A DNA stretch of 64,000 bases, from positions 62,001-126,000 of the forward strand of contig JAJVHY010000007.1 of assembly GCA_022072455.1 (NCBI GenBank), given 5' to 3'. Source of the stretch: Verrucomicrobiia bacterium (lineage in GTDB: Bacteria; Verrucomicrobiota; Verrucomicrobiia; Palsa-1439). Positions 53,923 to 57,060 of this stretch are shown piece by piece (the first letter of the stretch is position 1; each line of letters begins with the position of its first letter). Below the pieces are notes generated by a model, which saw only the letters and a program-made list of their open reading frames with translations, was not told the DNA's origin and made no database searches. The translations under genes were made by a program, and so were the position numbers.

Positions 53923-54708
53923 TCAAGGCTTCGCCACCCGCTCCAGCTCCTCCGCCCGCACCCAACCCTGTTGCTCATCAGCGCGTTCGACAAAAACCCA
54001 CTGCCCGCGGTCCTCCCGAATCGCCACTTTCGTCCCCTCGCCCAACTGAAAATGCACCGTCGCATCCGCCAACGGCGCAAACCGCGCCTCCACCTTCGGC
54101 ACCACCACCACCGCCACTGGCCGCGCCGCATTCCGGTAAATCACCATCGCCGTCGCCGTCACCAAGCCGATCCCGGCCATGACCGCCAAAATCACCAACC
54201 CGCTTCGCCACCGGGGCCGCCACACCGCGGCCGCAATCAACAACATCGTTGCCCACACTCCGATGATCTCATACCGAGTCCACTGCGCCGTCGTCCGCGC
54301 GCCGGCCAGCGACCGAAAAAAACGGACGACCAGCTTCGGCGACACATTCACCTCCGCCACGCCGAGCTTTTCTTCGGCGAACTTCAGATTCGCGAGAATA
54401 TCGGGATCACCAGGTGCAATCAGCCGGGCTCGTTCGTAATTGAGCACCGCCCGCCCCACCTGTCCCGCCCGGTAATGCGCGTTGCCGAGATTAAAAAATA
54501 CATGCGCCGTCTTTGGCTCGATTTTCTCGTAAGCCGCCACCGCCTCCGCAAACTTGCCGGCATCAAACAGCGCGTTCGCCGCCTTGAAGTCGTCGGCGAC
54601 CGCCATGGCCGCGATCAAGTAGGGTGCGCTATTGCGCACCAGCCGCGCCCAGCCGCACAAAATGCGGTGCGCAATAGCGCACCCTACTGGCTTACTTTTC
54701 CAATTCAT
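53923..54708 (-). CDS. batE: BatE-like TPR and SH3-type membrane protein with a REPIN-encoded insert
   Basis: Last gene of the bat operon. A TPR region (about 40-110; AANALFDAGKFAEAVAAYEK, FFNLGNAHYRAGQVGRAVLN) is followed by two membrane helices (IIGVWATMLLIAAAV and LVILAVMAGIGLVTATAMVI) and a C-terminal SH3-like domain (VAIREDRGQWVFVE, GWVRAEELERV). Residues about 8-30 are the translation of a 69-base palindromic element; without it the N-terminus would read MNWKSKP-LIAAMAVADDF, a short signal-like sequence. ATG at 54708 overlaps batD by 17 bases; an alternative start is the ATG at 54606 (MAVADDF). 261 residues as called. Confidence 0.82.
   Translation of the reverse strand: MNWKSKPVGCAIAHRILCGWARLVRNSAPYLIAAMAVADDFKAANALFDAGKFAEAVAAYEKIEPKTAHVFFNLGNAHYRAGQVGRAVLNYERARLIAPGDPDILANLKFAEEKLGVAEVNVSPKLVVRFFRSLAGARTTAQWTRYEIIGVWATMLLIAAAVWRPRWRSGLVILAVMAGIGLVTATAMVIYRNAARPVAVVVVPKVEARFAPLADATVHFQLGEGTKVAIREDRGQWVFVERADEQQGWVRAEELERVAKP
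54619..54687. repeat. REP pair (REPIN-like) inside batE
   Basis: GTAG-GGTGCGC-tatt-GCGCACC at the left and GGTGCGC-aata-GCGCACC-CTAC at the right are inverted copies, 69 bases in all (exactly 23 codons). It lies in frame within the 5' end of batE. The hairpin differs in sequence from the CGCAGGCT family but has the same GTAG feet and two-hairpin layout. Confidence 0.85.
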
Positions 54709-56335
54709 CAATCACCTGTTCCAATTGTTGCTTCAATCCGTTCACATCCGCCCGCGCCCCGGCAAACCGCGCCGCGTCGCATACCTCAAAAATCTCCCGC
54801 ACCTTCCCCGGCAACCGGTGCTCCTCCACCACCGATGCCGTCATCCCCGCCGCCGGCAAGTTCAACCGGTCGCCCAAATACTCCTGCAACACCCGTTGCA
54901 CCTGCTCCGGCGTCGTCGCCCCGGCCAGAATCTGCCGCGCATTCCGCGCCGCCCGGCTGCGCCGCGCGTACGCCACATCGCCGGTCAAGCGTTCCTGCCG
55001 GCGTTTCCACGCAATCGCCCCGGCCAGTGCCAGAACCGGGACCACGTTCCATGGCCAAATCGGCGGCGGCACACTCGCGACCGGCCCGCGATCACCCTTC
55101 AAATACACGATGTCCTGCCCCAGTTTCTCCGCTGGCCGTACCCGCTCACTGCCGGTCAACACCGCCGCCTGCCCGCCGGGCTTGATCTTCAACTCAATTG
55201 GCGCCTGGCCGGTCGTCTTGTACGTCTTCGCGACCGGATCAAAATACGACAACCGCACATCCGGTAACTGCGTCGCCTTCGTGTCTTTCGCGACCAACAC
55301 CTGCTGAAACACCCGTTCACCGGTCGTGCCCAACTCATTCTTTGTCGTCTTCGATGTTGGGTCATACGTCTTGAAATTCTCCAATCCCTTCAACTGAATC
55401 GCCGGCACCGTGTCGATGTTGCCATTCCCGGCAATCCGCACCGTCACTGTGATCGGATCTCCCACCGCCACCTCCACCGGTTTTGCGTCCACGCTCAAAC
55501 TCCATTCGCCCACCGCCCCGGCAAAATCCGCCGGCCGCCCCTCCGCCGGCAACGGCAAGACTTCAATCGGCACGACATCCAAGGTGACCGGCACTTCGCG
55601 CACTTCGATGCGTCCCATCATCTCATCGAAAATCGACCGGTTTCGCACCTGCGTCGCCAACTGCACCTTGAGCACGCATGGGCCGAACTTGAGTTCACCG
55701 GCGCGCGTCGGCGAAATCGCGCCTTCAACCACATAGACATTGAACGCCTCACCATTGATCGACTGCGTCCCCTGTTTCACGTTACCGCTGTACTTGTACC
55801 CGAGCCCTTCCGCTTCCGAGTTAAAACTGCTCAACCCGCGCACCGGCAAATTCGCCCGCGCAAACACGATCACATCCAACGGCGCGGTCTGCCCGAGGTA
55901 AACCTGCTGCGAATTCAGCCGCACCTTCGCAAACAAACTTTGCGACATATCGGTTTGCGCGCCCGGTTTATCAACGGTCAACCTGATGGGGTTGGTCTTA
56001 AAGATTTTCCCGGCCACATTCACATCCAGTGCCGGTATCATAAACTCACCCGTTCGCGTCGGCGTGACCTGATACACCAAGCTCACTGATTGACTCATCG
56101 CCCCGTTGACGATGGACACGCTGGTGTTCACCGCCGGCCCCGCGAAGTTCAAACCCTCAATCTTCGGAATCGCCGGTTGCCCGCCGCTCTGGGTGCCGTT
56201 GATGCTGATGGTCAGCGAGATGGACTCGCCAAAACTCACCCGCGCCTGATCCACCGTAGCCGACACCGATACCTCCGCGAACACTTGCGGCGTCAGCAAG
56301 ACCAACGCAATGACCCAGAAAAATCTCACGCTCAC
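54692..56335 (-). CDS. batD: BatD, aerotolerance-operon membrane protein
   Basis: A 547-residue protein with a signal peptide (FFWVIALVLLTPQVFA), four or so beta-sandwich domains (DQARVSFGESISLTISING, AKVRLNSQQVYLGQTAPLDV, KPVEVAVGDPITVTVRIAG) and a membrane segment near residue 410 (WPWNVVPVLALAGAIAW) before a cytoplasmic helical tail. This is the BatD layout. Bat proteins are linked to stress resistance in Bacteroides and Leptospira, but their mechanism is unknown. GTG at 56335 follows AAGGA and overlaps the BatC-like stop by GTGA. Confidence 0.88.
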   Translation of the reverse strand: MSVRFFWVIALVLLTPQVFAEVSVSATVDQARVSFGESISLTISINGTQSGGQPAIPKIEGLNFAGPAVNTSVSIVNGAMSQSVSLVYQVTPTRTGEFMIPALDVNVAGKIFKTNPIRLTVDKPGAQTDMSQSLFAKVRLNSQQVYLGQTAPLDVIVFARANLPVRGLSSFNSEAEGLGYKYSGNVKQGTQSINGEAFNVYVVEGAISPTRAGELKFGPCVLKVQLATQVRNRSIFDEMMGRIEVREVPVTLDVVPIEVLPLPAEGRPADFAGAVGEWSLSVDAKPVEVAVGDPITVTVRIAGNGNIDTVPAIQLKGLENFKTYDPTSKTTKNELGTTGERVFQQVLVAKDTKATQLPDVRLSYFDPVAKTYKTTGQAPIELKIKPGGQAAVLTGSERVRPAEKLGQDIVYLKGDRGPVASVPPPIWPWNVVPVLALAGAIAWKRRQERLTGDVAYARRSRAARNARQILAGATTPEQVQRVLQEYLGDRLNLPAAGMTASVVEEHRLPGKVREIFEVCDAARFAGARADVNGLKQQLEQVIDELEK

Positions 56336-57060
56336 CAATCCTTGACCGGTTGCCCGGCCTCTTTCAAGTCCTTCATCTGCAACTCCGGGAAAAAATTCCA
56401 ATTTTTCTCCTCCTCCCGGAGTTGATCAAGCAATGCCGCCGCCTGTTGTTTATCGAGATTTTCCGCGGGTTTCGGCTCGGTCTGTGCCGGTTGCTCCTGC
56501 GGTTTTTGTTCTTGCGACGAATCGGGTTTTTGTTGCTGTTGCTGTTGCTCGTCCGGCTTTTGCTGATCCTGTTTGTCCTGATCTTTTTTGTCCTGGTCCT
56601 TCTGATCGCCTTTGTCCTGCTTCTGCTGCTGTTGTTCCTGCTGCTGTTTTTTCAGCTCCTCAATTTTCTTCTTCACCAAATCCCGATTGAATTTTGCATC
56701 TTCGTCTTGGGCATTCAACGCCAACGCCCCCTCATACTCCTTCAAGGACTTCTCATACACCGGCAACGCCTGCTCGATCCCCTGCTTCTCCGCCGCCTGC
56801 CCCAGCCGGTAATGCGTGTTCCCGAGATTGTACCGCGAGCGAACTTGCAGTTCCCTTTCCGGCGACGCCAACGCCCGCTCAAACGCCGCCACCGCCTTTG
56901 CTAAATCATTACTCCGGTAGGCCGTCACCCCCTCATTATAGACGCGCGGCCAACTCTCTGCCGCTCTGACCGAAGTTGAACCACAGAGACACAGAGCGCA
57001 CAGAGCCACCAGCACTCCGGTCGTTCTCCTCTCTGCGTTCTTTGTGTCTCTGTGGTTCAT
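56332..57060 (-). CDS. batC: BatC-like TPR protein with a repeat-encoded signal peptide
   Basis: A 242-residue protein. Residues 1-33 (MNHRDTKNAERR then VLVALCALCLCGS) are a signal peptide translated from a palindromic repeat, with a possible lipobox-like LCLCG. TPR repeats follow (about 35-125; YNEGVTAYRSNDLAKAVAAF, YNLGNTHYRLG). Residues about 135-205 are an extreme Gln/Lys/Asp-rich, charged low-complexity tract. The C-terminus has LLDQLREEEKNWNFFPEL. The ATG is inside the repeat and overlaps the batB stop (ATGA). Upstream frame extension lies in batB. Confidence 0.82.
   Translation of the reverse strand: MNHRDTKNAERRTTGVLVALCALCLCGSTSVRAAESWPRVYNEGVTAYRSNDLAKAVAAFERALASPERELQVRSRYNLGNTHYRLGQAAEKQGIEQALPVYEKSLKEYEGALALNAQDEDAKFNRDLVKKKIEELKKQQQEQQQQKQDKGDQKDQDKKDQDKQDQQKPDEQQQQQQKPDSSQEQKPQEQPAQTEPKPAENLDKQQAAALLDQLREEEKNWNFFPELQMKDLKEAGQPVKDW
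56977..57059. repeat. Palindromic repeat of the TGAACCACAGAG family at the batB/batC junction
   Basis: TGAACCACAGAGACACA (56977-56993) and its exact complement TGTGTCTCTGTGGTTCA (57043-57059) bound an 83-base element. It carries the batB stop codon, the batC start codon and the codons of the batC signal peptide. A single half-unit of the same family is at 63192. Confidence 0.85.

Follow-up and report, generated by a model that had tools for sequence, protein, structure and literature searches.

A GTAG-type REP hairpin pair within the batE reading frame of a Verrucomicrobiia bacterium

GTAG repeats and the pair in batE

REP sequences of the GTAG type have been described in several phyla, in a survey of 24 families, and the species with the most intragenic GTAG repeats was Opitutus terrae, a member of the Verrucomicrobia (Di Nocera, De Gregorio, Rocco 2013; PMC3733652). 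The same work reported that these REPs can lie inside ORFs, that their dimers can encode 20-30 residues, and that their feet can provide TAG stop codons. The spacers of head-to-head (HH) dimers were found to range from conserved to variable, and the Rickettsia elements RPE-4 and RPE-6 were placed in a sister CGTC class (PMC3733652). REPINs were defined by Bertels and Rainey 2011 (PMC3116915) and RAYTs by Nunvar 2010 (PMC2817692). The mechanism of REPIN dissemination is still described as unresolved (PMC8266576).

The element considered here occupies 54619-54687 of the window, meaning the whole stretch of 64,000 nt that was analysed, and is the only REP pair within it. Its 69 nt (22+25+22) comprise two identical 22-nt GTAG-type REP hairpins inverted around a spacer. 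Arm 1 (54619-54640, plus strand), which is distal on the batE strand, has the sequence GTAGGGTGCGCTATTGCGCACC, a GTAG foot followed by the hairpin GGTGCGC-TATT-GCGCACC. After an unstranded spacer of 25 nt (54641-54665) comes arm 2 (54666-54687, minus strand), an inverted and identical copy, and thus the reverse complement of GTAGGGTGCGCTATTGCGCACC, which is proximal on the batE strand. Each arm forms its own hairpin with a 7-bp stem and a 4-nt loop and leaves the GTAG foot unpaired, and the two arms can also pair with one another. The initial annotation had described a REPIN-like pair of 69 bases with GTAG feet and inverted hairpins, which is borne out by a perfect inverted repeat (54618-54640 and 54666-54688; 23 nt, 100% complementary, 25 nt between), the sole inverted repeat within 54500-54800.

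Known HH dimers share many properties with this element and its relatives in the genome. Both combine an unpaired GTAG tail with a short-looped stem of 5-13 bp, both are joined head to head with the GTAG outside, and both are found between convergent or tandem genes, close to their 3' ends. Feet serving as TAG stops, occasional copies in frame within ORFs, a RAYT flanked by the same repeats, and many near-identical dispersed copies are likewise common to the two, although the family here is small (28 arms, 13 pairs) and each pair has its own spacer. The likeness is one of architecture. As with REPINs and their RAYTs (PMC3116915, PMC2817692), inverted doublets far exceed singlets, the cognate RAYT is flanked, and the doublet is more conserved than its spacer. 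The differences are a far smaller population and spacers that lack a common sequence, and the latter does not exclude membership because Bertels and Rainey report that spacers are less conserved than REPs.

A resemblance to the coding palindromic elements of Rickettsia had also been proposed for the batE element. This holds insofar as palindromic repeats lie in frame within protein genes and are tolerated there. It does not extend to the class of the repeat, since RPE-4 and RPE-6 have CGTC tails whereas the foot here is GTAG, and here merely 2 of the 13 pairs are in genes. Closer in sequence is the REP family of Candidatus Melainabacteria GWF2_37_15, which has the identical 22-nt arm and in which pairs flank a RAYT homologue (L124:1293-1976) that shares 37.6% identity over 189 aa with the RAYT of our genome. 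That lineage is distant, however, and its REPs have AT-rich spacers and occur more commonly as singles. Between the two organisms the REP DNA is conserved far better than the RAYT protein.

The batE pair thus represents known behaviour of GTAG-REP HH dimers and REPINs, of which intragenic copies and stop-codon feet were already described in 2013.

A small family of pairs and its RAYT

With up to 3 mismatches allowed, the 4.82-Mb genome contains 28 copies of the arm, 14 per strand, and a reversed-pattern control gave 0. These 28 arms resolve into 13 inverted pairs (control 0), distributed over 8 contigs, and two single arms, so that doublets clearly outnumber singlets; one of the lone arms is probably a deletion derivative. 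Clean feet and outer stems are found in 10 of the 13 pairs, the others being C3:205431 and C13:136869, with one mutated foot each, and C7:37588, in which a compensated stem change is present in both arms. Only two pairs are located within genes, both in the n-regions of signal peptides. The pair pattern is absent from the 383 other genomes of a class-wide draw, the only same-genus genome included, and from the 387 other genomes of a phylum-wide draw that overlaps the first. The family is recent in this genome because its arms are near-identical, its spacers are all unrelated, and the pair is missing from the sampled relatives. A scan of 84,980 species for the exact 22-mer, from which the records of the source genome were possibly left out, returned only one Melainabacteria genome and two Rhodobacterales MAGs.

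Two REP pairs bracket a gene for a 191-aa RAYT (locus C9:196974-197683, gene at C9:197078). The protein matches the NCBIfam model NF047646 (REP_Tyr_transpos, REP-associated tyrosine transposase) with 182 bits against a cut-off of 80, and its Pfam match is Y1_Tnp. A single RAYT gene with the same REP pairs on both sides is the usual REPIN-RAYT arrangement. A mutS-like gene takes its stop codon from the foot of one RAYT-flanking pair (C9:196974). Four other genes for Y1/IS200-like transposases (on C14, C30, C1, and C4) have products with 22-23% identity to the RAYT where they can be aligned at all, and are not associated with this REP.

Most copies lie outside genes and adjoin gene 3' ends. Where a gene 3' end touches an element, the TAG of the foot is the stop codon in 14 of 18 cases (P = 1.4e-4 for at least 14, against one third expected under random frames), and TGA directly precedes the foot in 3 more. 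Among ORFs of at least 120 aa in the window, 5 of 54 end in a GTAG stop context. Orthologues stop at the same codon or 0-1 codon away at most sites compared, and at C7:202781 the orthologues of both genes in genome G001 stop exactly at the foot codons. At C21:14972-15036 the two flanking convergent gene ends have an inverted CTACAAGTCG in common, possibly by chance.

With high confidence we assign the batE element to the GTAG-type REP pairs (HH dimers or REPINs), as one of only 13 pairs in a family that was active recently and is presumably dispersed in trans by the single RAYT. This enzyme, an HUH/Y1 single-strand transposase whose involvement is suggested by its physical association with the repeats, would act on the hairpins while the DNA is being replicated and place pairs beside GTAG-like sequence. 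The insertions that survive would be those in harmless positions; most of them are flush behind stop codons. The batE copy would have landed in the overlap of batD and batE, where relatives have the batD stop, and may have been retained because it adds a whole number of codons and is located in a signal-peptide n-region. What speaks against this reading is that the comparison for batE reaches to orthologues of at most 61% identity and not to a strain-level empty site, and that spacers which all differ would not be expected if the whole unit were copied, conserved spacers being the rule of thumb for HH dimers (Di Nocera 2013).

The moving unit and the origin of the spacers

The 13 spacers are all different and measure 11-25 nt, with exactly 25 nt in 5 of 13. 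At up to 3 mismatches the spacer of the batE site occurs once in the genome, leaving no donor copy to be found elsewhere, and it resembles none of the spacers of the 12 other pairs. Since the arms are near-identical yet the spacers are unrelated, the spacer is not simply copied along with the arms. In 26 of 26 arms a purine immediately follows the hairpin (P = 1.5e-8). When the spacers were compared with genomic stretches, their likeness to one another was unremarkable by local score (p 0.31) and weak by global score (p 0.01), where the ends are constrained.

Several further ideas were dropped. Spacer families were rejected with local similarity no higher than in genomic controls, spacer-guided target choice with 1 of 13 sites alike and the rest at chance, and target-site duplication with nothing consistent among the flanks. 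Two candidates for a decisive empty site proved ambiguous: at hisC the leader is native in other relatives, and at hisI/trpE relatives differ in their trpE spacing, from -4 to more than 100 nt. Empty sites were also sought at the convergent pairs, where synteny in relatives is lost or broken by hundreds of bases. None of the available relatives offered a clean empty site.

The second pair in frame within a gene (C4:285377-285444, 68 nt) bears directly on what moves. It lies in the n-region of the signal of a CzcB/CusB-like efflux-adaptor lipoprotein, following MKIN and leaving LAVLLLAGC intact. Because the frame is open despite 68 nt, a plain insertion of this length cannot be the whole story at this site.

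One plausible account, to which we give somewhat less than even weight, is that two 18-nt hairpins entered each site, either one by one or through a RAYT dimer, behind host GTAGs that lay on the two strands 11-25 nt apart, in which case the host supplied the spacer as well as both feet. At batE the foreign part would then amount to only 36 nt, and the N-terminus would originally have read MNWKSKPVGILCGWARLYLIAAMAVADDF. This would fit spacers that are unrelated while the arms are identical and recent, feet that are both native stop codons at convergent sites such as C7:202781, and the purine behind every hairpin. Of the foreign lengths tried, 2x18 nt is also the one that leaves both coding cases (69 and 68 nt) in frame, and rayt 3' ends captured between REPs have precedent (Nunvar 2010; PMC2817692). 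At C4:285377 the spacer approximately repeats its left flank at 12 of 13 positions, a score reached by 17 of 20000 random 24-mers before correction for the 13 sites; that site aside, however, spacers resemble their own flanks no more than the spacers of other sites do. Other observations weigh against such an origin. Spacer lengths peak sharply at their maximum, as if they were an intrinsic loop of the unit, and the hisI and trpE genes overlap in the same-genus genome and leave no room for a spacer. Convergent genes without a gap are, moreover, not uncommon: of 11 gaps in the window, 3 measure 0 or less. The more specific statement that each insertion consists of two new 18-nt hairpins placed on opposite strands behind a pre-existing GTAG, bracketing 11-25 nt of host DNA, so that the moving unit is the hairpin and not the doublet, we regard as tentative and rather doubtful.

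No less plausible, and likewise short of probable, is the entry of a 65-69 nt REPIN in one piece, with its loop re-made or replaced at each transposition. The common length is 69, and the shorter spacers would then be likely deletion derivatives. The lone arm near C6:105196, with GTAGGGTGCG in front, resembles a 69-nt pair that has lost 20 nt internally by deletion. At batE, 69 is divisible by 3, and the doublet has been proposed as the moving unit by Bertels and Rainey 2011 (PMC3116915), who found the REPs better conserved than the spacers. Against entry as one unit stand the 68 nt at C4:285377, which keep the frame only when one further base is included, and the native gene ends at both feet of convergent sites.

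The batE frame and its export signal

The batE gene (53923-54708, minus strand) encodes a TPR protein with a C-terminal SH3-like region and begins with the ATG at 54708. On the minus strand its frame runs from MNWKSKP (54708-54688) through 23 element codons, translated as VGCAIAHRILCGWARLVRNSAPY (54687-54619), into LIAAMAVADDF, in agreement with the initial annotation. The protein is otherwise whole, with a TPR match and a weak SH3-like match, and has 53-61% identity to family relatives. Upstream, batD (54692-56401, minus strand) ends with a TAA (54694-54692) that falls inside batE codons.

For the start codon we relied on the relatives with the closest batE N-termini (G002, G003, and G008, from two sister genera). 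In all three, the protein starts with MNW at the position that corresponds to 54708, and the start overlaps the batD stop as ATGA. They do not use the alternative Met at 54606, which lies in LIAAM (54604-54618, minus strand), a part of the hydrophobic core of the signal peptide. The earlier proposal that the insert is translated is therefore upheld by the alignment. Counted from the batE ATG, the GTAG of the batD stop in G008 is at +22 and the element foot here at +21. Judging from position, the element would occupy the place where batD formerly ended, a point that lies within batE.

It is very unlikely that BatE starts at 54606 and that the element is a hairpin in an untranslated 5' leader: many N-terminal REPs do become extragenic once mis-annotated starts are corrected (Di Nocera 2013; PMC3733652) and a stable hairpin could block an upstream start, but the relatives retain the MNW start together with the batD overlap and the GTGATTGATG context, and a start at 54606 would yield MAVADDF, a protein without an export signal. 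The RNA of the element region is predicted to fold with -62.4 kcal/mol (z -5.05), and the start of this very stable hairpin is 21 nt downstream of the batE ATG. In the batE mRNA it may lower translation.

The initial annotation also held that the element disrupts the export-signal region, which is too strong. Both the hydrophobic stretch YLIAAMAVA and the cleavage region AVA|DD are intact, the core and the signal-peptidase site thus being kept, and the best 9-residue hydropathy is 2.26 with the element and 2.22 without it (values from a hydropathy calculation, not from a signal-peptide predictor). Under the reading that we favour, in which a RAYT-dispersed REP pair is translated as part of batE, BatE would still be made from 54708, and the insert would merely lengthen the positively charged n-region of its signal peptide by 23 residues. 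BatE is probably still exported, and the consequence for batE itself is probably minor. The element may be an exact insertion, as had been described, and the sequence agrees with this. Excision of the 69 nt, however, leaves a signal peptide of 15 residues, which is short but possible, whereas the closest relatives have 18-19 residues, and the other coding case measures 68 nt.

Because the 13 pairs are recent and nearly alike, a single RAYT accompanies them, and the same-genus genome has no pair at all, the question of what moves and where the spacers originate becomes testable in this organism. The two coding cases identify signal-peptide n-regions as places where such insertions survive inside genes.
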